DNA of 44,868 bases, from assembly GCA_001898425.1 (NCBI GenBank), contig MKTV01000056.1, positions 104,018 to 148,885 on the forward strand. Reading direction: 5' to 3'. Made by a program: the position numbers and the translations under genes. The notes beneath the pieces are model-generated. The model was not told where the DNA came from. It did not search any database and worked only from the letters and a program-made list of their open reading frames with translations. Positions 469-37,316 of this stretch are shown in pieces. The DNA comes from Rhodospirillales bacterium 69-11. GTDB taxonomy: Bacteria; Pseudomonadota; Alphaproteobacteria; Acetobacterales; Acetobacteraceae. The stretch's first letter is position 1. Each line of letters starts with the position of its first letter.

Positions 469-572
469 CGCGTCCCGGCCGGGCCTCCCCGCGTCCTGGC
501 CCGCCCGCTCCGTGTCACGGCCGGCGCAGGCCATGACACGGGGCGCCGCGACAGGCGCGGCATGACACGGGG
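469..572. repeat. Degenerate copy of the GTGTCATGGCC palindromic repeat family
   Basis: In the convergent gap between gloA and ruvX. Bases 510-522 (CCGTGTCACGGCC) and 529-541 (GGCCATGACACGG) form a hairpin with one mismatch, and a third half-copy (GGCATGACACGGGG) follows at 559-572. Upstream, 469-509 holds weaker GCGTCC-GGCC units with a similar rhythm. The arms match the other copies in this window. No protein-coding signal is seen here. Confidence 0.75.
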
Positions 573-583
573 GGAGGGCGCGT

Positions 584-1051
584 TCATCCACCCCGTGTCG
601 CGTCCAGCGCGGCTTGCAGCATCCAGGCGGCAGCCGCGCGGTCCACCGCCTCGGCGCGCTTGCCGCGGCTCAGATCCGCCTCGCCGATCAGGAACCGGTT
701 GACCGCGGCACTCGACAGCCGCTCGTCCCAGAGCGCGGCGGGTAGGCTGGTCGCCTCCGACAGCGCGATCGTCCAATCGCGCGCCGCCTGCGCCGCAGGG
801 CCCATCGTGCCGTCCATCGACAGCGGCAGCCCGACCACCAGCCCGCCCGCGCCCTCCTTCCGCGCGATCGCCAGCACCTCGGCGGCGTTGGCCTTCAGCT
901 TGCCCCGCCTGAGGCTGCCATAGGGCGAGGCCAGCATCAGCCCCACGTCCGACAGCGCAATGCCGATCGTCTTCGCCCCGGGATCGAGGCCGATCAGCCG
1001 CATGCCGCGCGGCAAGCCGGCCCGCAGGTCGGTCAGGTTGAACAGCGCCAT
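584..1051 (-). CDS. ruvX: RuvX/YqgF family Holliday-junction-resolvase-like nuclease (pre-16S rRNA processing)
   Basis: A 155-residue RNase H-fold protein of the YqgF family. Members are implicated in 16S rRNA 5'-end maturation and were originally annotated as putative Holliday junction resolvases. Family marks seen are the N-terminal [17 protein letters not shown] strand with its first catalytic Asp, the [10 protein letters not shown] block, the WDERLSS motif carrying the conserved Glu, and a C-terminal Asp in [12 protein letters not shown]. The ATG at 1051 is chosen: it gives normal length, whereas the longer frame would begin at a TTG at 1087. It is divergent from gatCAB, a neighbourhood I associate with alphaproteobacteria. 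Confidence 0.93.
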
Positions 1052-1102
1052 GCCCGTCGTTATGGTCCCGCGCTTCAATCCAGCCAAGGAACAGGCCCGC
1101 CC

Positions 1103-1390
1103 ATGTCGCTCGATCCCGCGACCGTTCGCCGCATCGCAACGCTCGCCCGCATCCGGGTGGAGGAGGCGGAGGTCGCGACCCTGCAGAACGAGCTCAATGG
1201 CATCCTCTCCTGGATCGAGCAGCTGAACGAGGTGAACGTGGACGGGGTGGCCCCGCTCACCGGCGGCGCGCAGATGACGCTCCGGCTGCGGGAGGACGTG
1301 GTGACGGATGGCGGCTATCCCGACCAGGTCCTGGGCAACGCCCCCGACCGCATCGGCGACTTCTTCGCCGTGCCGAAGGTGGTCGAGTGA
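1103..1390 (+). CDS. gatC: Glutamyl/aspartyl-tRNA(Gln/Asn) amidotransferase subunit C
   Basis: The small 95-residue subunit that belts GatA to GatB in the GatCAB complex, which amidates Glu-tRNA(Gln) and Asp-tRNA(Asn). It shows the typical GatC pattern: [16 protein letters not shown] at the N-terminus, [22 protein letters not shown] in the middle and a C-terminal FFAVPKVVE tail. AAGGAA at 1086-1091 lies 11 bases before the ATG. Its stop overlaps gatA (TGATG), and all three gat genes are coupled by overlaps, consistent with stoichiometric synthesis. Confidence 0.96.
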
Positions 1391-2874
1391 TGCTGACCGA
1401 CCTCACCATCGAGCAGGCCCGCGCGGGGCTCCGCGCCGGCGAGTTCACCGCGGTCGACCTCACCATGGCGCACCTGCACGCGATCGAGGTGCTGAACCCG
1501 CGGCTCAATGCCTTCATCGACGTCCGCCACGACCGCGCGCTCGACCAGGCGCGGGCCGCCGACGCGGCACTCGCGGCCGGGGAGGCGCGGGCGCTGACCG
1601 GCATCCCGCTCGCGATCAAGGACCTGTTCTGCACAGCCGGCGTCCGCACCACGGCGGGCAGCAGGATCCTCGAGCCGTTCGTGCCGCCGTACGAGAGCAC
1701 CGTCACCGCCAACCTGCTGCGGGATGGCGCGGTGTTCCTGGGCAAGACCAACATGGACGAGTTCGCGATGGGCTCGTCCAACATGACCTCCGCCTACGGG
1801 CCGGTGGAGAACCCGTGGAAGCGCCGGCAGGACGCCGCGGCCGTGCTGGTGCCGGGCGGCTCCTCCGGCGGGTCGGCCGCGGCGGTCGCGGCCCGGCTCG
1901 CGCTGGGCGCGACGGGCACCGACACCGGCGGGTCCATCCGCCAGCCGGCGAGCTTCTGCGGGCTGGTGGGCGTGAAGCCGACCTACGGGCGATGCTCGCG
2001 CTGGGGCGTGGTCGCCTTTGCCTCCTCGCTCGACCATCCGGGCCCGTTCTCCCGCACCGTGCGGGACGGGGCGATCCTGCTGGGTTCCATGGCCGGGTTC
2101 GATCCCAAGGACTCGACCAGCGCCGAAATGCCCGTGCCGGATTGGGAAGCCGCCTGCGCCCGTTCCGTGAAGGGGCTGCGGATCGGCGTGCCGCGGGAAT
2201 ACCGGATGGACGGCATGCCCGCCGAGATCGAGGCGCTCTGGCGCCAGGGCCTCGACTGGCTGCGCGACGCCGGGGCCGAGATCGTGGACGTCTCCCTGCC
2301 GCACACGAAATACGGGCTCGCCGCCTACTATGTCGTCGCGCCGGCGGAGGCCTCCTCCAACCTCGCCCGCTACGACGGCGTGCGCTTCGGCGCCCGCACC
2401 GACGGATCGGACCTGCGCGACCTGTATGAGCGCACGCGGGCGAGCGGCTTTGGGGACGAGGTGCGGCGGCGCATCATGATCGGCACCTACGTACTCTCGG
2501 CCGGCTATTACGACGCCTATTACCTGCGCGCGCAGAAGGTCCGCGCGCTGATCCTGAAGGACTTCACCGACGCGTTCGGCCAGGTCGACGCGCTGCTGAC
2601 CCCGACCGCGCCCTCGGCCGCGTTCGGCCAGGGCGAGAAGATGGACGACCCGATCACGATGTACCTGAACGACGTGTTCACCGTGCCGGCGAACCTGGCG
2701 GGCGTCCCCGGCATCTCCGTTCCCGCCGGCCTCGACCCGAACGGCCTGCCGCTCGGCCTCCAGGTGCTGGCCAAGCCGTTCGACGAAGCGACCATGTTCA
2801 CCGTCGCCGCGGCGCTGGAACGCGCGGCCGGGTTCGAGGCACTGCCCACGCTGCGGGCGGGAGGCGAGGGATGA
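1390..2874 (+). CDS. gatA: Glutamyl/aspartyl-tRNA(Gln/Asn) amidotransferase subunit A
   Basis: The glutaminase subunit of GatCAB, 494 residues, of the amidase-signature family. It releases ammonia from glutamine and channels it to GatB. The Ser-cisSer-Lys triad can be placed as K77 ([10 protein letters not shown]), S158 (PGGSSGGSA) and S182 ([12 protein letters not shown]); the 24-residue serine spacing equals that of S. aureus GatA. The ATG at 1390 overlaps the gatC stop by one base; a GTG three bases earlier is also possible. The stop overlaps the gatB ATG (ATGA). Having GatCAB implies that tRNA(Gln) and/or tRNA(Asn) is charged by the indirect route, as in most alphaproteobacteria. Confidence 0.97.
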
Positions 2875-4325
2875 GCTACACGATCCAGGGCCGCACCGGC
2901 GACTGGGAGCTCGTCGTCGGGCTCGAGGTGCACGCCCAGGTCATCTCGAAGGCCAAGCTGTTCAGCGGCGCCGCGACCGCCTTCGGCGCGGACCCGAACA
3001 GCCAGGTCAGCTATGTCGACGCAGCCTTCCCGGGCATGCTGCCGGTGGTGAACCGGTTCTGTGTGGAGCAGGCGGTGCGCACCGGCCTCGGCCTCGCCGC
3101 GCACATCAACCCGGTCAGCCGCTTCGACCGGAAGAACTACTTCTACGCGGACCTGCCGCAAGGCTATCAGATCAGCCAGTTCGACCATCCGATCGTCGGC
3201 ACCGGGACGATCGAGATCGAGCTCGCGGACGGATCCACCCGGCAGATCGGCGTCACCCGCCTGCATCTCGAGCAGGATGCCGGCAAGTCGATCCACGATC
3301 AGCATCCGACCAAGTCGCTGATCGACCTCAATCGCGCCGGCGTCGCCCTGATGGAGATCGTCTCCGAACCGGACATCCGCTCCCCCGAGGAGGCGGGCGC
3401 CTATCTGCGCAAGCTGCGCTCCATCCTGCGCTACCTCGGCACCTGCGACGGCAACATGGAAGAAGGCTCCATGCGCGCCGACGTCAACGTCTCGGTGCGC
3501 AAGCACGGGGAGCCGTACCGGACGCGCTGCGAGGTCAAGAACGTCAACTCCGTCCGCTTCGTCATGCAGGCGATCGAGGCGGAGGCGATGCGCCAGGTCG
3601 AGATCTGGGAGAGCGGGGGCACCGTCGAGCAGGAGACCCGGCTGTTCGATCCCGGCCGCGGCGAGACGCGCTCCATGCGCTCCAAGGAGGATGCGCACGA
3701 CTACCGCTATTTCCCGGACCCCGACCTGCCGCCGCTGGTCTTGGACGAGGCGTGGATCGAGACGCTGCGCGCCAACCTGCCGGAACTGCCCGACGCGAAG
3801 AAGGCGCGGTTCATGCGGGAGTATGGACTGAGTCCCTACGATGCCGGCGTGCTGGTCGCCGAACAGGCCACGGCGCAGTTCTACGAGACGGTGGCGCGTG
3901 GGCGTGATGCGAAGATCGCGGCCAACTGGGTGACCGGCGACTTCTTCGCCGCCCTGAACCGCACCGGCCGCAGCATCGAGGATCCGCCGGTCACCGCGAC
4001 GGCGCTGGGCCAGCTTCTGGACCTGATGGCCGACGGTACGATCAACGGCCGCATCGCCAAGGACGTGTTCGAGGCGATGGTCGACACCGGCAAGGCCCCG
4101 GCCGCGATCGTGGAGGAGAAGGGGCTGCGTCAGGTCACCGACACCGGCGCGATCGAGGCGGCGGTCGACGCGATCCTGGCCGCCAATGCCGGCAAGGTCG
4201 CGGAATACCGCGGCGGCAAGGACAAGCTGTTCGGCTTCTTCGTCGGCCAGACCATGAAGGCGATGGCCGGGAAGGGGAATCCGGCCCTGATCAACGAGAC
4301 GCTGAAGCGCAAGCTGGCGGGGTGA
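2871..4325 (+). CDS. gatB: Glutamyl/aspartyl-tRNA(Gln/Asn) amidotransferase subunit B
   Basis: The kinase/amidase subunit of GatCAB, 484 residues. It activates the misacylated tRNA with ATP and transfers ammonia to it. Diagnostic segments are the N-terminal [12 protein letters not shown], the [19 protein letters not shown] signature at about residues 151-169, and the MRADVNVSV and [13 protein letters not shown] blocks. The last roughly 150 residues fit the YqeY-like tRNA-binding tail, ending in [13 protein letters not shown]. The start is fixed by the ATGA overlap with gatA. The last 35 bases overlap the 3' end of the convergent gene on the minus strand, so no terminator fits between the two coding regions. 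Confidence 0.97.
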
Positions 4326-5463
4326 GGCCGGCGGCGCCACGCCGATCCTCGGTTTCCGATGGCGGTCGCGGCCCCGCCTGCTCCCGCCCAGCCCAGATCT
4401 CGGCGGCCTGTCGCGTCGCCTCGGCCGGATCGGCGGCACGCCCGGTCGCGAGCAGGCCGAGGCCGATCGTCGCCTGGATCGTCGCCACCACCGTTGGCGG
4501 CGCCTCCACGCCGCGCCAGACCGCGGCGAGCAGCGCCGGCGTGTCGGCTTGCGGCGTGAGCGGGGAGAGGTCCGGATCTGCCGGCAGCACGCATTCGCTC
4601 GCACCGGTGCGCCCGTCCCAAAGATGCGCGGTCGTGGGTTTCAGCGGCGCACGCTCCGCCTCCCCGCCGCCGCCCTTCAGCACCAGCAGGCGCGATCGAC
4701 CGAGGCGTTCCGCCACGCCGAGATGCACCGCGATGTAGGCCGGATGGAACACGCCATCGACGCCGGCCGGTGCGTCCGCCGGGTTGACCAGCCGGGCCGC
4801 GGTATTGACCGGGGACCGCAGTCCGAACAGCCGGCGCAGGCCAAGCAGGGTGGCGGTCGGCGGGGAGAGCGCGGCGATGGGCAGGTAGGCGAAGCCGGTG
4901 GCGGCCACCTGGCGCTTCGCCGCAGTCAGGCTGCCGGCCGGTGCCAGGCCCAGAGCCGCAAGCCCCTGTTCGGCGGGGATGCCTCCGCTGAATTCGTTGC
5001 TGCCGTGCATGAGGACACGAACGCCCGCGCGCGCCAGCGCAAGCGCCGCGAGCAGGTACCACGGCGCCCCGCGTGTCCGTCCCGCGCCATAGGACGGCCA
5101 GTCGAGATCGACCCTGCCATCCCCCGCCGCCGCTCCCCGCACGCCGGCCGCCGTGCCTTCACCCGTCATGGCCGGCCCTGAGCCGGCCATCCCCACCGGC
5201 ACACCCCCACCGGCCGCCACACGCGCCGCCACGTCATCACGGATCGCCTCGACGATGCCGGCAATCTCCTCCGCGTCCTCTCCGCGGAATCGCAGCAGCA
5301 TCAGGAACGCACCCACCTGGTGCGGATCCGCCTCGCCGGCCAGCACCATGCCGAACGCTGCCCGCGCCTCCGCGCGGCTGAGCGCGCGGGACCGGCCGGG
5401 GCCACGGCCGAGAATGGTCACGAAGCGGGCAAACGCGTCCTCGGTGGCTTGGGTGCGGCTCAT
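4291..5463 (-). CDS. TrpD-like glycosyl transferase family 3 protein (YbiB/TrpD2 type)
   Basis: The 390-residue protein has the two-domain layout of the anthranilate phosphoribosyltransferase superfamily. An N-terminal helical domain (about 1-80, with [31 protein letters not shown]) is followed by a phosphoribosyltransferase-like domain starting at [11 protein letters not shown]. It is not a standard TrpD: it sits outside any trp operon and lacks the usual GTGGD glycine loop. It resembles the YbiB/TrpD2 group, whose members bind nucleic acid and whose function is uncertain. Residues about 83-116, between ARV and VDLDWPSY, look like an insertion, and part of it is encoded by the genome's palindromic repeat. 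The C-terminal tail overlaps the end of gatB. It is divergent from the CbiX-like gene. Confidence 0.8.
5168..5190. repeat. Palindromic repeat core inside a coding sequence
   Basis: A perfect 9-bp stem, ATGGCCGGC (5168-5176) and GCCGGCCAT (5182-5190), with a 5-base loop, preceded by GTC. The arms are identical to the hairpin arms of the intergenic copies at 25.2 and 37.2 kb. It lies in frame in the TrpD-like gene and encodes MAGSGPAMT, at a place where related proteins as I recall them run directly into the conserved VDLDWPSY block. Confidence 0.7.
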
Positions 5464-5560
5464 CCATTCCCGCTACCCCGCCCGCGCGCCGCGCGGCAAG
5501 CGCAGGCTTGATGTCGCCGCCGAACCGCCGATCTCTGCGGCACCGATCGTGAGGAGCCGC

Positions 5561-6328
5561 ATGCCTGGACGTGACCTGCTGCTGGTGGCCCATGGCTCCG
5601 ACCGCTTCATCGATGCCGGCGCGCCGGTCGAGGCGCATGCCGCCGCCTTGCGGGCCACCGGCCTGTTCGGCCGGGTCGCGGTCGCGCTGCTGGCCGGTGG
5701 TCCACCGCCCGCCGAAATTCTCGCCTCATGTCCCGGTCCGCGCGTCGACGTCGTGCCCTTCTTCATGGAAGCAGGGTGGTTCACCGCCGTCGCCGTGCCC
5801 CGTGCGCTGCAGCTCGACGGCCAGGTTCCACCCGAACGCAGCGTGCGGATCGTGGAGCCGGTCGGCACGCACCCGGCACTGGCGGCGGTGATCGCCGCGC
5901 GGGTCGCGCGCCACGCCCCGGAGGCCCGCCGTCTGCTGCTGATCGGCCACGGGTCTGCGCGCCGCCCTGGCCGCCGGCTTGCGCTGCACGACCATGCCGA
6001 CCGGCTGGCGTCTCTGTTCGAACGCGTGGAGGTCGCGCTGCTCGAGGAGCCCCCCTTCGTTCCCGACGCCCTCGCGCGGTTGCGTGGCGCACCGGTCGCC
6101 ACCCTGGGCCTGTTTCTCGGCGCCGGCGGCCATGTGCGGGAGGACGTGCCCGCCCTGCTCGCCGCGGCGGCGGCGGACGGAGCGCTGCGCGATTGCGGCA
6201 CGATCGCCGAGGAACCGGGCTTGCGGTCCATCGTGCTGGACCGGGTGGGGCTGGCGACCGATCGGGTCGCAGGCGTGCCTCTTGAATGGCCGGCGGGAAC
6301 GCCGAATACTCGGCGCATGGAAGAATAA
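5561..6328 (+). CDS. CbiX/SirB-like sirohydrochlorin (cobalto/ferro)chelatase family protein
   Basis: A 255-residue protein with two tandem chelatase half-domains, as in long CbiX. Each half opens with a chelatase strand and His: LLLVAHGSDR (H11) and LLLIGHGSAR (H130). The second half also keeps the second His in LGAGGHVREDVP (H191). The equivalent point of the first half reads FFMEAGWFTAVAVP, with no His, so probably only the second site binds metal. Known members insert Co2+ or Fe2+ into sirohydrochlorin; the metal cannot be told from sequence. The ATG at 5561 follows GAGGAG at 5551-5556. The next gene starts 11 bases after the stop, so the two are likely co-transcribed. No other cobalamin gene is nearby. 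Confidence 0.8.
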   Translation: MPGRDLLLVAHGSDRFIDAGAPVEAHAAALRATGLFGRVAVALLAGGPPPAEILASCPGPRVDVVPFFMEAGWFTAVAVPRALQLDGQVPPERSVRIVEPVGTHPALAAVIAARVARHAPEARRLLLIGHGSARRPGRRLALHDHADRLASLFERVEVALLEEPPFVPDALARLRGAPVATLGLFLGAGGHVREDVPALLAAAAADGALRDCGTIAEEPGLRSIVLDRVGLATDRVAGVPLEWPAGTPNTRRMEE

Positions 6329-6339
6329 AGGGGGAACGC

Positions 6340-7335: not shown

Positions 7336-7453
7336 CGTCCGCCCGGCCGAATAATCGCCGCGCCGGGCCGCCGCTCGCCGGCGCGTCTTCCGCCGAGCGG
7401 CGAGCCCGACGCGCATGCTCGGGCAGCCGCCGCCACGCCGGAACCGGTCGCCG

Positions 7454-7912
7454 CTACGTCAAAAGGACGATCGCCTCGATCTCGACGGCGATGTTGCGTG
7501 GCAGGCTGCCCATGCCGACGGCCGACCGAGCGGGGCGGCCCGCGTCGCCGAACACGTCCACGAACAGGTCGGTGCAACCGTCGATCACCTTCGGATGGTC
7601 GCCGAACCCCGGCGCGGCGTTCACCATGCCCAGCACCTTCAGCACCGTGTCGACCCGGTCGAGCGAGCCCAGGGCCGCGTGCATGTTGCCGAGGAGATTG
7701 AGGCCGCAGAGCCGCGCCGCTTCGTAGGCCTGCTCGATCGAGACGTCCTGGCCGACGGTGCCGGCGATCATCGACCCGTCCGGCCGGCGCGGGCCGACCC
7801 CCGAGAGGAACAGCATGTTCCCCCCGATCCGGAACGGAACGTAGTTGCCGAGTGGCTTGGGCGGGGGAGGAAGGGTCAGGCCGAGTTGCGCGAGGCGGTC
7901 GGTGGCGGACAT
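7454..7912 (-). CDS. RidA/YjgF/YER057c family protein
   Basis: A 152-residue member of the Rid family. Well-studied RidA proteins hydrolyse reactive enamine/imine intermediates released by PLP enzymes. The C-terminal block PARSAVGMGSLPRNIAVEIEAI carries the family Arg (R129) and Glu (E144). The N-terminal half (LGNYVPFRIGGNMLFLSGVGPRRPDG) is of the slightly longer Rid subgroup often annotated as 'RidA family protein', so the exact activity is less certain than for archetypal RidA. The ATG at 7912 is the natural start. It is convergent with the cupin gene, and no clear terminator is seen in the 118-base gap. Confidence 0.92.
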   Translation of the reverse strand: MSATDRLAQLGLTLPPPPKPLGNYVPFRIGGNMLFLSGVGPRRPDGSMIAGTVGQDVSIEQAYEAARLCGLNLLGNMHAALGSLDRVDTVLKVLGMVNAAPGFGDHPKVIDGCTDLFVDVFGDAGRPARSAVGMGSLPRNIAVEIEAIVLLT

Positions 7913-8565: not shown

Positions 8566-8600
8566 GCCACGTGGGTAACGCGGCGGTGATGAAGAGTCCA

Positions 8601-11596: not shown

Positions 11597-12571
11597 TCAC
11601 GCCGTCGCGGTCTGCAGCGCGCGCAGCACCGCGCGGCGCAGCAGCACCTGTTTGAAGCCGTTCTGGCTTGCGGGCTTGGCCCCCTGGCCCGCGAGCGCCG
11701 CCGCGTCGGCGAGCGCCTTCGGCGTGAGCGGACGACCGCGCAACGCCTCCTCCACCTCCGGCAGGCGCCATGGCTTGGCGCCGACCCCGCCCGCCGCGAC
11801 GCGGATGTCGTGCACGGTCCCGGCGCCGGCATCGACCGCGACCGCGGCGGAGACCAGGGCGAACTCGAAGCTCGCTCGGTCGCGCACCTTGAGATAGTGC
11901 GAGCGCATCGCCGCGCGGCTCGCGGGGACGGATACCGCGGTGATCAGTTCGCCCGGGGCGAGCGTCGTCTCGACATGCGGGGTATCGCCCGGCAGCCGGT
12001 GGAGGTCGGACAACGGCAGGGTGCGTGTCGTTCCATCGGTCGCGCGCAACTCCACCGAGGCGTCCAGGATGATCAGCGCGACGGCCAGGTCGGAGGGATG
12101 GCTGGCGATGCAGTGATCGCTCGTCCCGAGGATCGCGAGCATGCGGTTCTCGCCCTGGATCGCGGGGCAGCCGGAGCCGGGAGCCCGCTTGTTGCAGGCG
12201 AAACCGGTGTCGCGGAAATAGCCGCATCGTGTGCGCTGCAGCAGGTTCCCGCCGATTGTGCCCATGTTGCGGACCTGCGGCGAGGCGGAGGCGAGCAGCG
12301 ACTGCGAGATCACCGGCCAGCGTGCGACGACGGCCGGATGCGCGGCCACGTCGCTCATGCGCGCCATCGCGCCGAGGCGCAGCGCGTCGTCCGTCGCGGT
12401 GATCTCGGTGAGGGGCAGCGGCTCGAGATCGATCAGCCGGTCGGGTGTCTCGACGTCGTTCTTCGCAAGCTGCAACAAGTCGGTGCCGCCGCCGATGTAG
12501 CGGCCGCCTTGCGCGGCGGCTGCGGTCGCCGACTCGAGCCCATCGGGCGTGGTGAGGGTGAAGGCCTGCAT
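11597..12571 (-). CDS. paoB: Aldehyde oxidoreductase FAD/[4Fe-4S] subunit (PaoB/YagS-like)
   Basis: The 324-residue medium subunit that passes electrons from the iron-sulphur subunit to FAD and the acceptor. FAD-binding motifs are GGRYIGGGTDLL (about 22-33) and RNMGTIGGNLLQRTRC (about 101-116). The segment 116-154 holds four Cys (C116, C126, C135, C154: RCGYFR, FACNKR, GSGCPA, SDHCIA), the arrangement that in E. coli PaoB binds an extra [4Fe-4S] cluster. This marks the PaoABC class rather than ordinary xanthine dehydrogenase. It lies four bases after the 2Fe-2S gene stop and 11 before paoC, so one transcript is likely. Confidence 0.93.
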   Translation of the reverse strand: MQAFTLTTPDGLESATAAAAQGGRYIGGGTDLLQLAKNDVETPDRLIDLEPLPLTEITATDDALRLGAMARMSDVAAHPAVVARWPVISQSLLASASPQVRNMGTIGGNLLQRTRCGYFRDTGFACNKRAPGSGCPAIQGENRMLAILGTSDHCIASHPSDLAVALIILDASVELRATDGTTRTLPLSDLHRLPGDTPHVETTLAPGELITAVSVPASRAAMRSHYLKVRDRASFEFALVSAAVAVDAGAGTVHDIRVAAGGVGAKPWRLPEVEEALRGRPLTPKALADAAALAGQGAKPASQNGFKQVLLRRAVLRALQTATA

Positions 12572-24289: not shown

Positions 24290-24290
24290 C

Positions 24291-25172: not shown

Positions 25173-25313
25173 GTGTCATGGCCGCCGTAGGGCGGCCATC
25201 CACGACTTTCGCCTCCCCGTTTCGTTTCGTGTGGAACGAAGTCGTGGATGGCCGGCACAAGGCCGGCCATGACACGGGAGGCGGCCGGCACGGCGCAGCA
25301 CCGGCCATGACAC
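25173..25313. repeat. Full nested palindromic repeat (cruciform) plus an extra half-copy
   Basis: Between convergent sucD and the monooxygenase gene. The outer arms GTGTCATGGCC (25173-25183) and GGCCATGACAC (25265-25275) pair perfectly. The inner arms GGCCATCCACGACTT (25194-25208) and AAGTCGTGGATGGCC (25239-25253) pair perfectly over 15 bp. Each flank is also a hairpin by itself (ATGGCCGCC/GGCGGCCAT on the left, ATGGCCGGC/GCCGGCCAT on the right). A further half-copy is at 25303-25313. The apex is about 30 bases. The structure could end transcription from both sides. Confidence 0.85.
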
Positions 25314-27194: not shown

Positions 27195-27362
27195 GGTCCT
27201 TGGTATTTCCTCGTATACGCGACTCTACCCGGCGGTAGGTGGGGTGGCCAGGGACCGGCGCCTCCGCGCTCCCGAGTGCCGCGCGTCTCATCGGCGTCTC
27301 ACGTCGCCGCAAACGATCTGGCGAGGTAATGGAGTCTCGGAGGTCGGGACGGGCGCCGCCCC
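27195..27362. other. Upstream region of the monooxygenase gene
   Basis: Left part of the 505-base gap between the monooxygenase start (27194) and the stop of the 181-residue gene (27700). It presumably contains the monooxygenase promoter; AT-rich words near 27200-27225 (TATTTCCTCGTATACG read on the plus strand) stand out, but no clear -35/-10 pair was found. No gene is seen. Confidence 0.4.
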
Positions 27363-27677
27363 GTGTCATGGCCGGCGCAGGCCCCGCCCGTGCGCTGGCC
27401 GGCGCAGCCCGCGCCCCCCGCGTCGTGGCCCAAGGCGGCGGCCCCGCCCCCCGCGTCGTGGCCCGAGGCGCCGGCCGCGCCCCCCGTGTCGTGGCCCGAG
27501 GCGGCGGCCGCGCCCCCCGTGTCATGGCCGGCGCAGGCCGGCCAACCACGACTTCGTGCCGTCCGGAAAGTCATGGATGACCGCCCTCCGGCGGCCATGA
27601 CACAGGGGGACGTCCCACGACACAGGGCCGGCCATGACACAGGGGAACGTCCCACGACACAGGGGCGGCCATGACAC
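27363..27677. repeat. Compound array of the palindromic repeat with 33-bp tandem units
   Basis: The array opens with GTGTCATGGCC at 27363-27373. Then follow units with the core G(C/T)GTC(G/A)TGGCC. Those starting near 27420, 27453, 27486 and 27519 repeat every 33 bases exactly; the two steps before them are 27 and 30. A full nested palindrome sits at 27519-27603 with degenerate inner arms (AACCACGACTT / AAGTCATGGATGACC). Then come inverted half-copies, GGCCATGACAC at 27593-27603 and 27667-27677 and others between, separated by GACGTCCCACGACACAGGG-type spacers. Long frames read across it in several phases but encode only the repeat. Confidence 0.85.
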
Positions 27678-27699
27678 AGGGGGACGCCCGTTCCAGCCC

Positions 27700-28245
27700 T
27701 CAGCCCACCCCGCCCGCATCGCCCCGCGACACGGGCGGCAGCGCCGGCGGACGCGGCCACACGCCCTCGCACCCCAGCGCCTCCGCCATCCGGCTGAGCG
27801 CGATGTGCTCGGTCCACGCCGCTTGGTCGCACACCGCTTCCCGCGCCTCCTGCTTCCGCCGCACTCCCTGCACCCGCAGCAACAACGAGCGCGTGCCCGC
27901 CGCATGCCGCATCATCGCCGCCGCTTGCGCGTTGCACTTGAGCGCCAGCGCCGTATCCGCCTCGTGCACCCGCGCAAGCCGCAGGCTCTCGAGCGCCTGG
28001 GACTGCGCCGCGACATACTGCGCCGCCAGCGCCGCCTCCTCCGCATTGACCGGCAACAGCGAGGCGACCATCGCCATCGCCGCATTGTCGCGGATCGTGA
28101 GCGCATCCGGATCGGGCGACGCCGGCGGCGGCAGCGCAGCCCGCAACGCGTGGATCACGTGGTGATAAAGATCGGCCGGAAGCCGGAGAGTGAAGTCTGA
28201 CCTGTCCACACCGGCACTATGCACGTTAGCTATTCTGACGGGCAA
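27700..28245 (-). CDS. Uncharacterised 181-residue helical protein
   Basis: I do not recognise a characterised family. After a short strand-like start (DFTLRLPADLYHHVIHALRAAL) the protein is almost wholly helical and Ala-rich. It has a block MAMVASLLPVNAEEAALAAQYVAAQSQALESLRLAR and a later KCNAQAAAMMRHAAGTRSLLLRVQGVRRKQEAREA. From memory, similar blocks occur in a hypothetical family abundant in Acetobacteraceae genomes. The start is uncertain: TTG at 28245, or GTG at 28224 or 28209; none has a good ribosome site. The C-terminus ends beside the repeat array. The steady non-repetitive sequence and conserved-looking blocks favour a real gene. Confidence 0.65.
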   Translation of the reverse strand: MPVRIANVHSAGVDRSDFTLRLPADLYHHVIHALRAALPPPASPDPDALTIRDNAAMAMVASLLPVNAEEAALAAQYVAAQSQALESLRLARVHEADTALALKCNAQAAAMMRHAAGTRSLLLRVQGVRRKQEAREAVCDQAAWTEHIALSRMAEALGCEGVWPRPPALPPVSRGDAGGVG

Positions 28246-30368: not shown

Positions 30369-30386
30369 ACCCGGTCTGACCGCGCG

Positions 30387-31124: not shown

Positions 31125-31262
31125 CGGCCGAGGATAGCGGGGCTGGCGGTCCGGCCGCCATGGCCGGGCTCGCGCGGTCTTGGCTTGGCAGGGCCGGGGG
31201 GACGCGTCGCGATGCGGCGCCAGTGCGGCGAGCGGCCGCCCCGGCCAGTGTAGGAGTGACGC

Positions 31263-32555
31263 ATGGAGCCAACACCTGCCTTGCCGCGCGTGGTGATCAT
31301 CGGCGCGGGGTTCGGCGGCCTCGCCGCGGCCCAGGCGCTGGCGCGGCAGCCCGTCGCGCTGACGGTGATCGACCGGCGCAACCACCATTTGTTCCAGCCG
31401 TTGCTCTACCAGGTCGCGACGGCGGGCCTGTCGCCGGCCGACATCGCGACCCCGATCCGCAGCCAGTTCCGTGGGCGCGACCATGTGCGCGTCCTGATGG
31501 CGGAGGTGACCGGCATCGACCTCGCCGCGCGGCGGGTGCTGACGACGGCCGAACCGGTGCCGTACGACACGCTGGTGCTCGCGACGGGCGCGCAGGACGC
31601 GTATTTCGGCCATCCGGAGTGGGAGCGCTTCGCCCCCGGCCTCAAGACGGTGGAGGATGCGGTCGCGATCCGGCGGCGGATCCTGCTCGCCTTCGAGCAT
31701 GCCGAGGCGGAGCCGGACGCCGATCGCCAGTGCCGGCTGCTGACCTTCGTGGTGGTGGGGGGTGGCCCGACCGGGGTCGAACTGGCGGGCGCGATCGTAG
31801 AACTGGCGCGGGTGGCGCTGGCGCGGGACTTCCGTCGGATCGATCCGCGCAGCGCGCGGGTGGTCCTGGTCGAGGCCGGCCCGCGGGTGCTCGCGACGTT
31901 CCCCCAGGCTCTGTCCGATGCGGCAGCGCAGGGGCTGCGCGACCTGGGCGTGGAGCTGCGCACCGGCGCGGCGGTGACCGCCTGCGATGCCGAGGGCGTC
32001 GTGGTCGGGTCGGACCGGATCGCGGCGGCGACCGTGCTGTGGGCCGCGGGCGTTCGAGCGTCGCCGGCCGCCGCATGGCTGGACGTGCCGGCCGATCGCG
32101 CGGGGCGGGTCGTGGTCGGGCCGGACCTGACCGTGGCGGGTCATCCGGAGGTGTTCGTGATCGGCGACACCGCGCATGCGGAAGGAGCGGAGGGACGTCC
32201 GCTGCCCGGCGTCGCGCCGGTGGCGAAGCAGCAGGGCGAATACGTGGCCCGCGCGATCGCGGCGCGGCGGAGCGGCGCGACGCCGGCGCCGTTCCGCTAC
32301 CGCGACCTGGGCAGCCTGGCGACGATCGGGCGGGGGCGTGCGGTCGCGGATTTCGGCTGGATCCGCCTGACCGGGCGCATCGCGTGGCTGCTCTGGGGAA
32401 TCGTGCACATCGCGTTCCTGATCGGCTTCCGGAACCGGATCGTCGTGCTGCTGGACTGGCTGTGGGCCTACGTCACGTTCCGCCGCGGAGCTCGGTTGAT
32501 CACCATGGATCGTGCGGGAGGCGAGGAGACGCCGGCGTCCGCTGCGGAGGCGTGA
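31263..32555 (+). CDS. ndh: Type II NADH dehydrogenase (NDH-2 family)
   Basis: A 430-residue flavoprotein that oxidises NADH and reduces quinone at the membrane without pumping protons. FAD motif VIIGAGFGGLAAAQAL (about residues 9-24); NADH motif FVVVGGGPTGVELAGAI; second FAD block VFVIGDTAHAEG. After RPLPGVAPVAKQQGEYVARAI comes the C-terminal membrane anchor WLLWGIVHIAFLIGFRNRIVVLLDWLWAY, typical of bacterial NDH-2. It is divergent from the DUF1275 gene. Its 3' side is a gap holding two kinds of repeat. Confidence 0.93.
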   Translation: MEPTPALPRVVIIGAGFGGLAAAQALARQPVALTVIDRRNHHLFQPLLYQVATAGLSPADIATPIRSQFRGRDHVRVLMAEVTGIDLAARRVLTTAEPVPYDTLVLATGAQDAYFGHPEWERFAPGLKTVEDAVAIRRRILLAFEHAEAEPDADRQCRLLTFVVVGGGPTGVELAGAIVELARVALARDFRRIDPRSARVVLVEAGPRVLATFPQALSDAAAQGLRDLGVELRTGAAVTACDAEGVVVGSDRIAAATVLWAAGVRASPAAAWLDVPADRAGRVVVGPDLTVAGHPEVFVIGDTAHAEGAEGRPLPGVAPVAKQQGEYVARAIAARRSGATPAPFRYRDLGSLATIGRGRAVADFGWIRLTGRIAWLLWGIVHIAFLIGFRNRIVVLLDWLWAYVTFRRGARLITMDRAGGEETPASAAEA

Positions 32556-32629
32556 CGGGCGTGCTCCCGGCTGGGGCGTCCGCGCGCGGCCTGGGCTGGA
32601 AGGCAGCCCGGCGGCGGCGGGGAGCGGGA

Positions 32630-32890
32630 TTCACCACGAAGGAACACCGAGGGCCACGGAGCGCCACGGAGGGAGCCGGACCTCGGCGCGGGCCGTGCGC
32701 GCTTCCAGGGGCGGTGTCCGACGGATCGCGCCGGGCCGCGGGGTCGGCACGCGGCCGCAGACCACTCGATCAGCATCATTGATTCCAGCGCTTCGCGCCT
32801 CTCGGACCTTCGATCGTCCCCGAGCAGCCTCGTTCCGCTGGATTGCTCCGTGGCCCTCCGTGGTCCTCCGGCTTCCTCCGTGGTCAACCC
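32630..32890. repeat. Second repeat family: long imperfect inverted repeat of CACGGAGG units
   Basis: The left arm (about 32630-32677) has CACCACGAAGG, CACCGAGGGCCACGGAG and CGCCACGGAGGGAGCC in series. The right arm (about 32840-32890) has the reverse-complement words CTCCGTGGCCCTCCGTGG, TCCTCCGGCTTCC and TCCGTGGTCAACCCC. The arms enclose about 160 bases of ordinary sequence without a gene. Repeats of CACGAAGG type are known from many proteobacterial intergenic regions; this seems to be a GC-rich version. Confidence 0.65.
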
Positions 32891-32934
32891 CGACGCTTCC
32901 CGCCCGCATGGACGTCGCCGATTGGAAGACGGGG

Positions 32935-32993
32935 ATGGCCGCCCTTCGGCGGCCATGACACTGGGGCACCGTGGCCGGACCACGGCCTGACAC
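32935..32993. repeat. Partial copy of the GTGTCATGGCC palindromic repeat family
   Basis: The hairpin ATGGCCGCC (32935-32943) / GGCGGCCAT (32948-32956) continues into GGCCATGACAC (32951-32961), and a further half-copy GGCCTGACAC lies at 32984-32993. The left outer arm is missing. It sits 3' of both ndh and paaK. Confidence 0.8.
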
Positions 32994-33023
32994 AGGGGGC
33001 CGCCACCGCTACGCCACAGGAGC

Positions 33024-34304
33024 CTATCGGCGGTCGATCACGCGCTTGGCCTTGCCGATGGAGCGCTCGATCGTGCCGGGCGGCTCCACCACCATGCGCA
33101 CCGTCACGCCCACCGTGTCCTTGATGCGCGCGGCGGCGAGCTTGGCCTCGGCGGCGAGCAGGTCGGGATCGGCATAGCCGGGGCGCGCCTCGACATGCAC
33201 GGCGACCTCGTCCATCCGGCCCTCACGCGTCAGCACGATCTGGTAGTGGCCGGTCAGCACCTCGGAGCGCAGCACCTGCGTCTCGATCTGGTTCGGGAAC
33301 ACGTTCACGCCGCGGATGATCATCATGTCGTCGGAGCGGCCCAGCACGCGGTCGATGCGGCGCATGGTGCGGGCGGTGCCGGGCAGCAGGCGCGTCAGGT
33401 CGCGCGTGCGGTAGCGCACGACCGGCATCGCCTGCTTGGTCAGCGAGGTGAACACGAGCTCGCCGGACGCGCCCTCGGGCAGCACCGCGCCCGTGTCGGG
33501 GTCGATCACCTCCGGGTAGAAATGATCCTCCCAGATGGTCGGCCCGTCCTTGGTCTCGACGCATTCGTTGGCGACGCCGGGACCGATCACTTCGGACAAG
33601 CCGTAGGTGTCGAGCGCATCCATCGCGAATCGGCTCTCGATATCGGCGCGCATCTCGTTGGTCCAGGGTTCGGCGCCGAAGATGCCGGCGCGCAGCGAGC
33701 AGGCGCGCGGGTCGAGACCCTGGCGGAGGAATTCGTCCAGGATCGCCAGCATGTAGCTGGGCGTGACCATGATGATGTCGGGGCGGAAATCCTGGATGAG
33801 CTGCACCTGGCGTTCGGTCATGCCGCCCGAGACGGGGACGACGGTGCAGCCCAGCCGCTCCGCGCCGTAATGCGCGCCGAGGCCACCGGTGAACAATCCG
33901 TAGCCGTAGGCGACGTGCACCATCATGCCGGGCCGCCCGCCCGAGGCGTAGATCGAGCGCGCGACGACGTTCGACCAGGTCTCGATGTCCTGCTGCGTGT
34001 AGCCGACCACGGTGGGCTTGCCGGTGGTGCCGGAGGAGGCGTGGATGCGCACGATCTGCGCGCGCGGGACGGCGAACATGCCGAACGGGTAGTTGGCGCG
34101 CAGGTCCTGCTTGGTGGTGAAGGGAAACCTGTGCAGGTCGTCGAGGGTGCGGAAATCGCCGGGATGCACGCCGGCTGCGTCGAACGCCTGCTTGTAGTGC
34201 GGCACGTTGGCGTAGGCGTGGCGCAGGGTCCAGCCGATCCGTTCCTGCTGCAGCGCGGAGAGTTCGTCGCGCGAGGCGGTTTCGATCGGATCGAGGCCGG
34301 CCAT
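33024..34304 (-). CDS. paaK: Phenylacetate-CoA ligase
   Basis: A 426-residue adenylate-forming ligase that converts phenylacetate, CoA and ATP to phenylacetyl-CoA, the first step of the paa pathway. The P-loop motif is HASSGTTGKPTVVGYT (about 89-103). It has YGYGLFTGGLGAHYGAERLG, GAEPWTNEMR and TYGLSEVIGPGVA, which mark the PaaK subgroup, and a C-terminal domain with GRSDDMMIIRGVNVFPNQIE and the Lys-rich IGKAKRVIDRR end. It starts right at the paaI stop, so it is the last gene of the paaG-paaI-paaK run. Confidence 0.96.
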   Translation of the reverse strand: MAGLDPIETASRDELSALQQERIGWTLRHAYANVPHYKQAFDAAGVHPGDFRTLDDLHRFPFTTKQDLRANYPFGMFAVPRAQIVRIHASSGTTGKPTVVGYTQQDIETWSNVVARSIYASGGRPGMMVHVAYGYGLFTGGLGAHYGAERLGCTVVPVSGGMTERQVQLIQDFRPDIIMVTPSYMLAILDEFLRQGLDPRACSLRAGIFGAEPWTNEMRADIESRFAMDALDTYGLSEVIGPGVANECVETKDGPTIWEDHFYPEVIDPDTGAVLPEGASGELVFTSLTKQAMPVVRYRTRDLTRLLPGTARTMRRIDRVLGRSDDMMIIRGVNVFPNQIETQVLRSEVLTGHYQIVLTREGRMDEVAVHVEARPGYADPDLLAAEAKLAAARIKDTVGVTVRMVVEPPGTIERSIGKAKRVIDRR

Positions 34305-34730
34305 CTAGTCCTCCGCGAAGAATTTGCCGATCGTGCGTGTCTGGCCGCGGAACTCCGCGACGATGGTGCCGTCCTCGCCGGTGACGCGGACGTCGTAGAG
34401 TCCGTTGCGCCCGGCGCGGGCGCGTTCCTCGGCGCGGGCGGTCAGCAGTTCGCCTCGCTTGCCGGGCCGCAGGAAGTCGATCGCCGCATGCTGCGCGACG
34501 GCGCGCTCGCCATGGCTGTTGGAGGCGAAGGCCATGGTGGAATCGGCAAGGGTGAAGATGAACCCGCCATGGCAGAGGCCGAGGCCGTTCACCATCTCGT
34601 CGCGCACGCGCATGGTGATTTCCGCACGGCCGGGCGCGACCGCCGTCAGGATCATGCCGAGACCGGCGGAGGCGCGATCGTCCGCCCACATCGCATCGGC
34701 GCAGGCGCGGGCGAGCGCCTCCGGGGTCAC
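34305..34730 (-). CDS. paaI: Hydroxyphenylacetyl-CoA thioesterase PaaI
   Basis: A 141-residue hot-dog-fold thioesterase. In the paa pathway it hydrolyses stalled ring-hydroxylated phenylacetyl-CoA esters to recover CoA. The motif NGLGLCHGGFIFTLADSTMAFASNSHG carries N48, H54 and the catalytic Asp D63. A GTG at 34730 is used: it overlaps the paaG stop as GTGA and gives the normal length. The next gene, paaK, starts one base after its stop. Confidence 0.94.
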   Translation of the reverse strand: MTPEALARACADAMWADDRASAGLGMILTAVAPGRAEITMRVRDEMVNGLGLCHGGFIFTLADSTMAFASNSHGERAVAQHAAIDFLRPGKRGELLTARAEERARAGRNGLYDVRVTGEDGTIVAEFRGQTRTIGKFFAED

Positions 34731-35524
34731 GTCGTGGCTCGTTGGCCGAAGCGCGGGGGCCGCTTCTCCTGGAACGCGCGCACGCCTTCCGCGTAGTCCT
34801 CGGTGCGGCCGGCCTTGCCCTGCAGCGCGGCTTCGAGATCGAGCTGGGCGGAGAGGTCGTTGGTCGCGGCGGCGGCGAACATCTGCTTGATCATCGCGTG
34901 CGACTCGGCCGGTCCCTGGGCGAGGCGCGCGGTCAGCGCCGTCGCTTCGGACATCAGCGCGCCGTCGTCGACCGCCTTCCAGATCATGCCCCACTGCTCC
35001 GCCTGCTCCGCGCTCACCGCATCGCCCAGCAGGGCGAGGGCGCGGGCACGGGCTTCGCCGATGGTGCGCGTCAGGAAGAAGGACGCGCCGGAATCGGGCA
35101 CGAGGCCGATCTTGACGAAGGCCTGCACGAACTTCGCGCCGCGGGCCGCGAGCACGACGTCGCAGGCGAGGGCGAAGCTCGCGCCGGCCCCAGCCGCGAC
35201 GCCGTTCACCGCGCACACGACGGGCAGGCGAGAGTCGCGGAGGCGCCGCACGACCTCGTGGTGGTAGGTGCCGGCGAGCGTCTCGAGATCGGGCGGGCCG
35301 TTCGGGCCGGGCGTCAGCGAGGGGCCGAGTTCCTGGCCGGCGCAGAAGCCGCGGCCGGCGCCGGTGAGCAGCAGCGCGCGGCAGCCGGCATCGGCCTCGG
35401 CCTCGTCGATCGCGCGCAGGAGGTGGGTGAGCATCGCCTCGTTCACCGCGTTCAGCTTGTCCGGCCGGTTCAGCGTGAGCTGGCGCCAGCCGTCCTGCGT
35501 CTCGACCAGGATATCGTCGGACAT
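34727..35524 (-). CDS. paaG: 2-(1,2-epoxy-1,2-dihydrophenyl)acetyl-CoA isomerase PaaG (enoyl-CoA hydratase family)
   Basis: A 265-residue crotonase-fold enzyme. In the phenylacetate pathway PaaG isomerises the ring epoxide to an oxepin. Motifs: GRGFCAGQEL (about 57-66), the oxyanion-hole segment NGVAAGAGASFALACDVVLAAR (about 107-128) and IGLVPDSGASFFL with D144, the Asp typical of isomerases such as PaaG rather than the Glu of hydratases. The gene order G-I-K is a paa cluster fragment. The ring epoxidase (paaABCDE) and PaaZ are absent from this window. Confidence 0.9.
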   Translation of the reverse strand: MSDDILVETQDGWRQLTLNRPDKLNAVNEAMLTHLLRAIDEAEADAGCRALLLTGAGRGFCAGQELGPSLTPGPNGPPDLETLAGTYHHEVVRRLRDSRLPVVCAVNGVAAGAGASFALACDVVLAARGAKFVQAFVKIGLVPDSGASFFLTRTIGEARARALALLGDAVSAEQAEQWGMIWKAVDDGALMSEATALTARLAQGPAESHAMIKQMFAAAATNDLSAQLDLEAALQGKAGRTEDYAEGVRAFQEKRPPRFGQRATT

Positions 35525-35532
35525 GGTTCGGC

Positions 35533-36096
35533 TCAGAGCGGCTTGAGCGGCGGGGTCTCGCCGGCGGGCAGCTGCACCTGCGCGACATTGAGCACCATGG
35601 ACACGAGGCTGTAGTACCCGACCGCCCCCACCAGATCCATCACGCCGCGCTCGCCGAACCGGTCGAGGACGGGCTGGTAGTGCGTGTCGGAGACCTGGCC
35701 GGTGCTGAGCAGCTCGTTGGCGAAGTCGTAGACCAGGGCTTCGTCCTTGCTCATCGCCTCGGGGCGGCGGCCATCGGCCACGGCGTCAAGGATGGCGGGG
35801 TTGAGCCCCGCTTCGATGCTCAGCTTGCGGTGCGCGTAGAACTCGTACTGGGCGGACCATTTGCGGCCGGCCATGCAGATCGCGAGCTCGTTCAGCGGCG
35901 CGGGGATCGAGCTGCCGAAGCGCACATAGGCGCCGACGCGCTGCACGAGATCGCAGAGATCGGGGCTGCGCAGCAGCGCGTTGAACGGGCCGCGCAGGCC
36001 GGAGCCGCGCGGGCCCGACTGGATGGCGTCGGCGACCTTCTTCTGGTCCGCGTTCATCGTCTCGGGCGTGAGGGTGGGGAAGCGTCCGGCGCTCAT
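35533..36096 (-). CDS. Carboxymuconolactone decarboxylase / AhpD-like family protein
   Basis: A 187-residue protein of the CMD family. The core block LNELAICMAGRKWSAQYEFYAHRKLSIEAGL with a conserved Glu and His is clear, followed by ALVYDFANELLSTGQVSD and the LVGAVGYYSLVSMVLNV helix. There is no CxxC, so an AhpD-like peroxidase role is unlikely. Proteins of this subgroup are often found beside aromatic or CoA-ester catabolic genes, but their substrates are mostly unknown. It lies eight bases before paaG and 14 after the SDR gene, in one probable transcript. Confidence 0.88.
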   Translation of the reverse strand: MSAGRFPTLTPETMNADQKKVADAIQSGPRGSGLRGPFNALLRSPDLCDLVQRVGAYVRFGSSIPAPLNELAICMAGRKWSAQYEFYAHRKLSIEAGLNPAILDAVADGRRPEAMSKDEALVYDFANELLSTGQVSDTHYQPVLDRFGERGVMDLVGAVGYYSLVSMVLNVAQVQLPAGETPPLKPL

Positions 36097-36110
36097 GGGA
36101 GAAACTCCGC

Positions 36111-36917
36111 TCAGGGCATGAAGGTGGTGAGGCCACCGTCGACGATGATCTCGGTGCCGGTGATGTAGCCGGCCTCGTCGGAGGCCAGGAACAGCACGGC
36201 GTGGGCGACGTCCCAGCCGGTGCCCATGTGGCCCATGGGCACGACGGCGTTACGGGCGTCGATCAGCTTCTGCGCGTCGTTGCCGGCGACCGTCTTGGCG
36301 AGGCGGGCTTCGACCAGGGGCGTGTGCATCAGGCCGGGCACCACGGTGTTCACGCGGATGCCCTTCTTCGCGTAGGTGCCGGCGGTCGAGCGCGAGAGCT
36401 GGATGACGCCCGCCTTCGACGCGCTGTAGCCGACATGGGAGCGGCCGGAGTGCCAGTCGTTGCGCATGCCGGCGACGGAGGCGATGTTGACGATCGCGCC
36501 CTTGCCCTGCTCGAGCATCACCGGAATCGCGTATTTGCAGCCGAGGAACGCGGTCTTGAGGTTGTAGTCGATCTGGCGGTCCCAGACCTCCTCCGACATG
36601 GCGACGGCATCGCCGGGAGCGGAGCCGCCCACGTTGTTGACCAGGATGTCGAGACGTTTGAAACGATCGACGCAGGCCTGCACCATCTCGGCCACGTCGG
36701 CCGCCTGCATGACGTCGCAGGAATGCGTGGCGCAGGTGCCGCCTTCCGATTCGATGATTTCGCGCGTTTCGTCCGCGGCGGCTGGATTGAGGTCGACGAG
36801 GAAGACCTTGGCGCCCTGACGCGCGAGCAGCGTGGCCGTTGCCTTGCCGTTGCCCCAGCCGGGTCCGATCGATCCCGCGCCGGTGACGAGCGCGACTTTG
36901 CCCGCGAGGCTGAGCAT
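36111..36917 (-). CDS. Short-chain dehydrogenase/reductase (SDR)
   Basis: A 268-residue classical SDR. The cofactor loop reads VTGAGSIGPGWGNGKATA, longer than the usual TGxxxGxG. NNVGG (94-98) follows, and the catalytic set is S147, Y164 and K168 (YSASK). D42 after the second strand (FLVDLNP) suggests NAD(H). The substrate is unknown; the position before the CMD-like and paaG genes suggests oxidation of a hydroxyacyl-CoA or aromatic intermediate. It is the first gene of this run; a repeat array separates it from livM. Confidence 0.92.
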   Translation of the reverse strand: MLSLAGKVALVTGAGSIGPGWGNGKATATLLARQGAKVFLVDLNPAAADETREIIESEGGTCATHSCDVMQAADVAEMVQACVDRFKRLDILVNNVGGSAPGDAVAMSEEVWDRQIDYNLKTAFLGCKYAIPVMLEQGKGAIVNIASVAGMRNDWHSGRSHVGYSASKAGVIQLSRSTAGTYAKKGIRVNTVVPGLMHTPLVEARLAKTVAGNDAQKLIDARNAVVPMGHMGTGWDVAHAVLFLASDEAGYITGTEIIVDGGLTTFMP

Positions 36918-37316
36918 GCCGTTGGTTTCCTCCTTCTTGGTCGGGGCAGGTTATCGGGTTTGGTCCGGGTGGCAAGCGTGCGGGGGGCGGGCGTTCCGGG
37001 TGAGGCCGCCGAGCGGGGGCGCGTCGAGGCCGCGGAACGGGGAAGCGCGTCATGGCCGCCGCAGGGAATGTCCCCGTGTCATGGCCGCCGCAGGGTATGG
37101 CCCCGTGTCATGGCCGCCGAAGGGCGGCCATCCACGACTTACCGTGCCGCACGACGTCGTGGATGGCCGGCCTGCGCCGGCCATGACACGGGGGGCGCCG
37201 CCTGCGCCGGCCATGACACGGGGGGCGCCCGCCTGCGCCGGCCATGACACGGGGCGTATCGCACACGGGACGCGCCTGCGCCTGCGCCTGCCTCGCGCCG
37301 TGGGGGATGCCGCCGC
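36918..37316. other. Gap between SDR and livM genes
   Basis: A 399-base gap with no supported gene. It must hold the promoter of the SDR-paa run unless that run is read from the liv operon. Most of it (37047-37250) is the symmetrical repeat array annotated separately; no clear promoter is visible in 36918-37046. Confidence 0.6.
37047..37250. repeat. Symmetrical array: three direct, a central cruciform, three inverted palindromic units
   Basis: Left half-copies (G(C/T)GTCATGGCC) at 37047-37057, 37076-37086 and 37105-37115 (steps of 29). Right half-copies GGCCATGACAC at 37179-37189, 37209-37219 and 37240-37250 (steps 30 and 31). The centre is a nested palindrome with inner arms GGCCATCCACGAC (37126-37138) and GTCGTGGATGGCC (37156-37168), perfect over 13 bp. 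The two flanks have equal copy number, suggesting growth by paired duplication or fusion of two arrays. It lies 3' of livM. Confidence 0.87.

Follow-up and report, generated by a model that had tools for sequence, protein, structure and literature searches.

We analysed a stretch of 44,868 nucleotides of Rhodospirillales bacterium 69-11 (contig MKTV01000056.1, positions 104,018 to 148,885; the whole stretch is called the window) and a family of palindromic repeats that it carries. Judged by their sequence, these repeats are dimers of repetitive extragenic palindromic (REP) elements of the CGTC type, mostly of a known kind. The unusual part is that the ends of the dimers seem to seed species-specific minisatellites. 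We consider it likely that REP dimers have done so repeatedly, probably through slippage induced by their fold. This proposal is based on computed properties, namely the anatomy of the dimer core, covariation within each half, independence of the halves, polarity of the tandem arrays beside the cores (wings), likeness of the array units to the adjacent half, differing wings on orthologous cores and preservation of the reading frame in one megasynthase gene. The trigger, slippage or template switching at folded DNA, and the way in which the core itself moves are what we infer from them.

The genome containing the window (G000) is 6.48 Mb long, and we read 1.18 Mb of it; from a sister species (G007) we read 1.06 of approximately 5.3 Mb. 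The stretches read in both genomes were picked partly for holding copies. The G007 contig orthologous to the window region is JAFKLG010000022.1, from a Rhodospirillales metagenome-assembled genome. Genes were called with a home-made caller, which in the window agrees with the Pfam-supported genes. Most counts refer to 78 strict cores of the main subfamily, family I: 36 from G000 and 42 from G007, giving 156 halves or sides, with 11 ortholog pairs entering twice. Cores cut by runs of N or falling outside the strict patterns (for example C29:47412) were excluded from the 78.

The motif GTGTCATGGCC had 18 matches in the window with at most one mismatch, compared with 1.3 expected, and none of 100 shuffles reached 18. 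In the whole genome there were 422 exact occurrences and 2 of the reversed control. The family I core reads GTGTC-ATGGCC-(apical part of 10-11 nt)-GGCCAT-CCACGACTT, followed by a spacer and the reverse complement, so that it consists of two inverted halves. Each half carries a TGTC tag, a stem of 9 bp (ATGGCC plus 3 bp), a loop of 4 or 5 nt and then a CCA tail. The tag was invariant in columns 5-7 of alignment A1 and at least 90% conserved in column 8 (A1 holds 31 of 37 cores, with spacers of 12, 13, 14 or 18 nt only). The 9-bp stem was combined with a 4-nt loop in 90 of the 156 halves and with a 5-nt loop in 66. The spacer measured 13 or 18 nt in 26 of 40 pairs; in the longer core count the same two main classes made up 51 of 78 and read as 21 and 26 nt, because that measure takes in some of the conserved tail. 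A second, related subfamily (family II) has a true CGTC tag and its own spacer, often with a GGCACGGTGCC-like palindrome (e.g. L028:13502-13589 and L067:15705-15791).

Strict family I dimers with tags outside numbered 36 in the 1.18 Mb of G000 and 42 in the 1.06 Mb of G007, other dimer types and singlets lying outside this count. Exact family I halves were present in 10 of 33 genomes of the genus. Five of these had high copy numbers (G000 142, G007 92, G023 89, G019 61, G027 46) and the other five had 1-3 each. Among 200 genomes sampled across the bacterial family, 2 contained exact halves, both from the same genus as G000. Curated Rfam families gave 0 matches in the window at the gathering score.

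Each half of the dimer appears to be maintained as a separate hairpin. We fitted a clover structure of four helices, in which the tag may pair with the opposite tag (helix 1), to 31 cores. Altogether 96.3% of cells were paired, 8 pairs showed double changes, and 0 of 500 shuffles scored as high. Over the 156 halves the three apical pairs formed in 155, 154 and 154 cases (139.9, 85.4 and 91.6 expected if columns were independent), while the types of the left and right halves agreed in 16 of 78 cores (15.8 when shuffled). Because the apical pairs covary within halves and the halves vary independently, we conclude that the maintained form is the clover and not one long hairpin. Compensatory changes in the arms, whose absence a preliminary description of the window had named as a potential refutation of its idea, were found in both of these tests.

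The long hairpin is nevertheless the minimum-energy fold of the core (-74.7 kcal/mol, z -9.6), and 37040-37256, a core with both wings, also folds as one long hairpin (z = -10 to -11). We rejected it as the maintained structure, as the halves are unmatched across the dimer; the long hairpin is a consequence of the palindrome and not a conserved feature. Two ideas that are usually merged for REPs are thereby separated, the fold that is maintained (each half alone) and the long hairpin predicted by folding programs. In two orthologous dimers the halves may have changed places. Between C29:75296 of G000 and C103:16118 of G007 the spacer matches at 15 of 18 positions when inverted and at 6 of 18 in direct orientation. 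Between C5:74194 of G000 and C69:2602 of G007 the apical parts are swapped left to right; the spacer says nothing here, matching at 7 of 13 positions in both orientations. These two cases, the only ones, are consistent with the halves having flipped or been exchanged.

The wings are outward tandem arrays of half-REPs beside the dimer cores. At least one outward unit was observed at 62 of the 78 family I cores (30 of 36 in G000, 32 of 42 in G007), compared with 5.6-5.8% of random positions. At least two units on a side were found in 45 of 78 cores, and a regular array in 37 of 78. The detector misses a degenerate array seen by eye at G007 C129:8338 and likewise the right side of L224. Units lay 14-60 nt apart (at most 40 nt in 206 of 226). 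Within a wing the period mostly stayed constant (zero difference between successive periods in 73 of 124 comparisons), and it varied by locus and side (17, 24, 27, 30, 33, 36, 37 nt and others). The apical part of the unit resembled the adjacent half more than the opposite one on 50 sides, less on 8 and equally on 12 (sign test, p = 1.6e-8). We looked for correlated growth of left and right wings and rejected it: neither unit numbers (rho = 0.15, p = 0.18) nor periods (rho = 0.31, p = 0.15; 23 two-winged cores) were significantly correlated, as for independent growth.

In a search blind to the tag (Tandem Repeats Finder, TRF), 26 of 36 family I cores and 9 of 15 family II cores had an array no more than 60 nt away, compared with 18% of random intergenic points. 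Such arrays could be ordinary minisatellites of a GC-rich genome lying by chance near REPs, since 64 of 303 core-less gaps of at least 150 nt held one. We regard this as very improbable, as arrays were present in 30 of 44 gaps of that length with a core (Fisher, p = 1e-9), 37 of 50 arrays near cores contained the tag, and the units resemble the adjacent half. Tag-bearing wings of family II with at least two units on a side were seen at 2 of 15 cores in G000 and 2 of 4 in G007. At G000:C29:52176-52335 a 15-nt array (GGGGCGGCCACGACG, 10.6 copies) adjoins an N-interrupted family II core (L023:12089-12210); this appears to be the longest wing of family II that we saw.

We also considered a transposase that cuts at the tag and, through repeated rounds of abortive insertion or re-copying, adds half-units; wings would then be scars of transposition and not of slippage. 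The polarity of the wings agrees with this, as units point outward from the tag (same direction on 88 of 156 sides, opposite on 4), and GTAG-type REPs are linked to REP-associated tyrosine transposases (RAYTs; PMC3116915, PMC3733652). The constancy of the period within wings favours tandem duplication instead. The preliminary description had proposed looking for a RAYT/TnpA-REP-like gene. The domain concerned (Y1_Tnp, PF01797) had no match in G000, which is 97.8% complete; this domain was the only transposase family looked for. A RAYT was rejected as mover of the elements on this ground. In the genus PF01797 is sporadic, occurring in 5 of 33 genomes: 2 of the 5 with high copy number (G019, G027) and 3 of the 28 others. 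The matches lie at G019:C111 and C85, G027:C108, G031:C60, G008:C58 and G010:C146, those at G027:C108 and G010:C146 carrying internal stops. Four of these loci were read over 2-3.4 kb each; none contained a tag pair, and three had single tags with one mismatch. We therefore think it unlikely that a transposase built the wings.

The wings differ between species. G007 and G000 are 79-94% identical over 63 aligned blocks. Of the cores of G000, 36 of family I and 15 of family II were tried; 16 had both flanks aligned to the G007 sequence read, and the core was present there in 12 and absent in 4. In the reverse direction it was present in 12 of 13. One absence was clean (C5:114382). No target-site duplication was recognisable at this single site, and one case is too few; among the matches listed, none beyond G000 and G007 spans both flanks, as would be needed for polarising it with an outgroup. 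In 11 family I ortholog pairs (22 sides) units were found in both species on 9 sides, in one species only on 9 and in neither on 4. Where both were winged, the first period was shared on 1 of 9 sides (27 nt; 4 and 1 units). Wings are apparently made afresh in each species. The ratio of tags to exact half-REPs was dropped as a cross-species index of wings, as diverged tails break the exact pattern.

Wings inside a gene keep its frame. Two cores lie in frame in a gene for a hybrid polyketide synthase-nonribosomal peptide synthetase (PKS-NRPS) of 3,936 residues with Pfam domains (G000:C29:62322-74132; L024:2322-14132), one between the ketosynthase extension and the next PKS linker domain and one after the AMP-binding domain. 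G007 has both dimers. All 14 wing periods in this gene were multiples of 3, compared with 81 of 196 in intergenic wings; counted by sides, the figures were 5 of 5 and 26 of 78 (p = 0.006). In one species the repeat peptides encoded by the wings include RPSPAMTQ-like ones; in its sister they are different. This test rests strictly on the one megasynthase gene, as misplaced start sites in the gene calls may account for the other "genic" cores. The same protein has a third REP-like peptide (SWMAGPSPAMT), ahead of its last methyltransferase-like stretch.

If selection had multiplied the wings as arrays of sites that bind a protein (gyrase, a nucleoid protein or a regulator), long rows of tags would be understandable: up to 7 further tags lie on one side of a core (G007 C51:13317), the most that we saw, and E. 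coli REPs are targets of gyrase (PMC3733652). Helical phasing is not kept, however, because the spacing ranges over the 14-60 nt given above and both number and period change between orthologs; the arrays in coding linkers keep the reading frame instead. We judge this explanation improbable.

The elements are biased towards gene ends. Strict intergenic cores of both subfamilies in G000 comprised 16 in convergent, 29 in tandem and 0 in divergent gaps (n = 45; 7.6, 24.6 and 12.9 expected from residual intergenic length). The values in G007 were 21, 15 and 0 (n = 36; 4.9, 21.5 and 9.6 expected). Looser clusters gave 1 of 57 in divergent gaps, with 15.8 expected. These counts omit midpoints in called genes or at contig edges (15 of 72 looser clusters; 6 of 51 strict cores in G000 and 10 of 46 in G007). 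Family I clusters lay at a median of 30.5 nt from the stop codon. The absence from divergent gaps, reported earlier for the window, was thus seen in both genomes, and the random placement relative to gene ends that would have spoken against the earlier interpretation was not observed in the 1.18 of 6.48 Mb read.

In that interpretation the elements act as RNA: transcribed hairpins would end transcription or protect mRNA 3' ends, in the manner of enterobacterial REPs, and wings would lengthen the hairpin. Cores follow stop codons, 0 of the 81 strict intergenic cores are divergent, and the plus strand of 37040-37256 folds as RNA at -166.8 kcal/mol (z -10), all of which agrees with such a role. 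The mismatches do not. In sense orientation, 32 tandem cores contained 19 G-U, 18 A-C and 39 other mismatches, and because G-U and A-C are equally frequent there is no signature of an RNA strand. Left and right halves, and likewise the wings, are mutually unmatched, though a long RNA hairpin would need them to match. In addition, wings mostly differ between orthologs, and 4 of the 16 testable elements are absent in the sister species. A scan found T-tailed terminators in 3 of 104 convergent gaps that lack a core and in 0 of 16 that have one, too few for a test of substitution. An RNA role therefore seems to us unlikely, if a little less so than the transposase. Avoidance of promoters would account for the placement equally well, and we infer that the bias mainly reflects survival outside promoters and coding sequence. 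Of the earlier interpretation, kinship with REPs, placement after genes and compensation are supported and the mRNA role is not, so that it is partly supported.

In the mechanism that we favour, seeding of minisatellites by the folded dimer, the element would be a head-to-head dimer of CGTC/TGTC-tagged REPs, once or still mobile, mostly placed just past stop codons. With halves kept as separate hairpins, the dimer could open into a four-armed clover or cruciform fold of DNA. This fold would provoke tandem duplication at both outer ends, of a short linker, the tag and the 5' arm of the hairpin up to approximately the loop, and the duplicates would expand into locus-specific minisatellites. The wings would be mirrored because the ends of the dimer are inverted copies. 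Each species would gain and lose wings on its own, with the core persisting, and in genes only frame-preserving wings would survive.

Several observations weigh against this mechanism. The position at which the match between unit and core ends is scattered over 78 sides (5' arm 6, 5' apical stem 22, loop 20, 3' apical stem 16, 3' arm 12, tail 2), and a single sharp breakpoint would have been stronger support. Minisatellites are common elsewhere in the genome, as the core-less gaps demonstrate, so part of the array effect is general. Some arrays near cores may not be wings, given that in G000 family II had far more TRF arrays than tag-bearing wings (9 and 2 of 15 cores). Orthologous cores were on average 93.5% identical in their conserved part and unrelated copies 90.5-91.5% (11 family I pairs); as orthologs are hardly more alike, the comparison does not demonstrate selection on individual cores. 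Wings are not confined to a single lineage, because units were found at 6 of 15 cores of four other species, two units at 2 of them (16 loci were chosen by core similarity, and 15 had a strict core). Finally, loss of SbcCD was rejected as the cause of palindrome tolerance: TIGR00619 (SbcD) was weak in all 33 genomes and above the cut-off in none, so there is no contrast in repair genes.

The simplest explanation of the wings is slippage or template switching on the folded dimer, and a bolder one is an enzyme that acts at the tag. A wider reading, to which we give only tentative credence, is a palindromic mobile repeat that grows at both ends, with inherited seeds to which tag and half-hairpin are added terminally, both in gaps and in protein linkers; in its strongest form the growth would be driven by an enzyme at the tag. 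If this were true, new repetitive peptides would be written into megasynthase linkers. Seeding by the folded dimer, too, would write repeat peptides into PKS-NRPS linkers. The birth of minisatellites is hard to observe, as usually their later growth alone is visible. Here it can be counted and tested, because at least two species carry dozens of near-identical seeds at known places, some with an array on one side, some on both and some on neither. The repeats look less like signals of gene ends than like seeds of new variable DNA.

The features found in the window are listed in the table below. All six repeat loci of the preliminary description exist, and five are intergenic as it stated: 512-572, 25173-25313 and 32926-32993 in convergent gaps, 27363-27677 and 37047-37250 in tandem gaps. 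They follow stop codons, the nearest being at 11 (512), 6 (25173), 30 (32926), 22 (27363) and 66 nt (37047). The claim of one family with common arms holds in that the loci are related; 5168-5190, however, belongs to family II and lies inside a called gene. Likewise, the "arms" at 27363 and 37047 are composites, in which a central dimer and mirrored tandem arrays of half-units had been lumped together. Complete dimer cores start at 25173, 27519 and 37105 only, 512-572 and 32926-32993 being degenerate or partial.

Table. REP-related features of the window (positions in the window; a dot marks features without strand)
Position	Strand	Feature	Remark
512..571	.	Degenerate family I copy: tag-stem-loop-inverted tag (512-539) and one right-hand unit ending GGCATGACAC	
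5164..5192	+	Family II half with true CGTC tag, CGTCATGGCCGGCCCTGAGCCGGCCATCC	Within called gene 4291-5463 (-)
25173..25275	.	Complete family I dimer core, spacer 30 nt	6 nt past sucD stop
25276..25313	-	Right wing of a single outward half-REP unit (period 38 nt)	
27363..27518	+	Left wing of half-REP units (period mostly 33 nt)	
27519..27603	.	Complete family I dimer core, spacer 13 nt	No core at orthologous place in L068 (G007)
27604..27677	-	Right wing of two half-REP units (period 37 nt)	
32926..32993	-	Right half of family I core (32926-32961) and one degenerate outward unit (..GGCCTGACACAGG)	
37047..37104	+	Left wing of two half-REP units (period 29 nt)	
37105..37189	.	Complete family I dimer core, spacer 13 nt	
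37190..37250	-	Right wing of two half-REP units (periods 30 and 31 nt)	

The copy at 512-571 sits between genes 47-433 (+) and 584-1051 (-). In G007 (L068) a core is present at the place orthologous to 25173..25275, with a longer and different wing than 25276..25313. Opposite 27345-27709, at approximately 11735-11900 of the reverse complement, L068 has an unrelated short-period array, CACCACAGCCGCAG-like, instead of the element at 27363-27677. The called gene 27700-28245 (-), which adjoins this largest element of the window, had no Pfam match at E <= 0.001. A covariance model built from the 31 cores was run over the 1.18 Mb, and the core at 37105..37189, itself among the 31, was its top match.

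We compared the elements with known systems. The kinship with REPs suggested earlier is borne out by the features tested for the CGTC-tagged REP superfamily (Di Nocera et al. 2013, PMC3733652): an unpaired CGTC, or TGTC/CCTC, at the end of the stem (TGTC in family I, CGTC in family II), an 8-9 bp stem starting from an A/T pair, a 4-5-nt loop and a CCA tail. As in that superfamily, inverted head-to-head dimers have a short spacer, heterodimers are common, there is no association with a dedicated tyrosine transposase (0 PF01797 matches in G000), and copies lie in convergent and co-directional gaps, rarely in divergent ones, with some intragenic. By size, the halves with 9 bp and 5 nt fit its families 3/4, a likeness of dimensions and not of consensus sequences; those with 9 bp and 4 nt, the larger class, fall outside the stem and loop sizes listed in the accessible text.

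The REPINs of Pseudomonas fluorescens (Bertels and Rainey 2011, PMC3116915) likewise consist of two inverted REPs and a spacer and show compensatory changes. That paper discusses hairpin and "clover" folds and describes tandem clusters of whole REPINs with their flanks and evenly spaced arrays of REPs. Here, in contrast, neither a RAYT (as Y1_Tnp in G000) nor its GTAG tag was found, the tags being TGTC or CGTC, and the arrays are of half-REPs, mirrored at both ends of the dimer and variable between orthologs. Br-REP1 and Br-REP2 of Bradyrhizobium (PMC5082802) are also alphaproteobacterial palindromes in 3' untranslated regions, with one example in a convergent gap; their sequence is different, and end arrays are not among the features described in the accessible part of that source.

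The RepRanger survey (PMC12306157) counted 1,369 REPs in Lichenicola cladoniae, so abundant REPs in Acetobacteraceae are already in print; its accessible text describes neither wings nor a CGTC classification. Half-REP arrays at REP dimers had no description in the literature that we searched, largely outside subscription journals and judged mostly by titles and the openings of abstracts. According to the accessible text of PMC3733652, clusters are rare in CGTC families and Acetobacteraceae are among the families without CGTC REPs. The elements described here differ in both respects, as most of the cores read are winged by tandem half-units and their host belongs to Acetobacteraceae.

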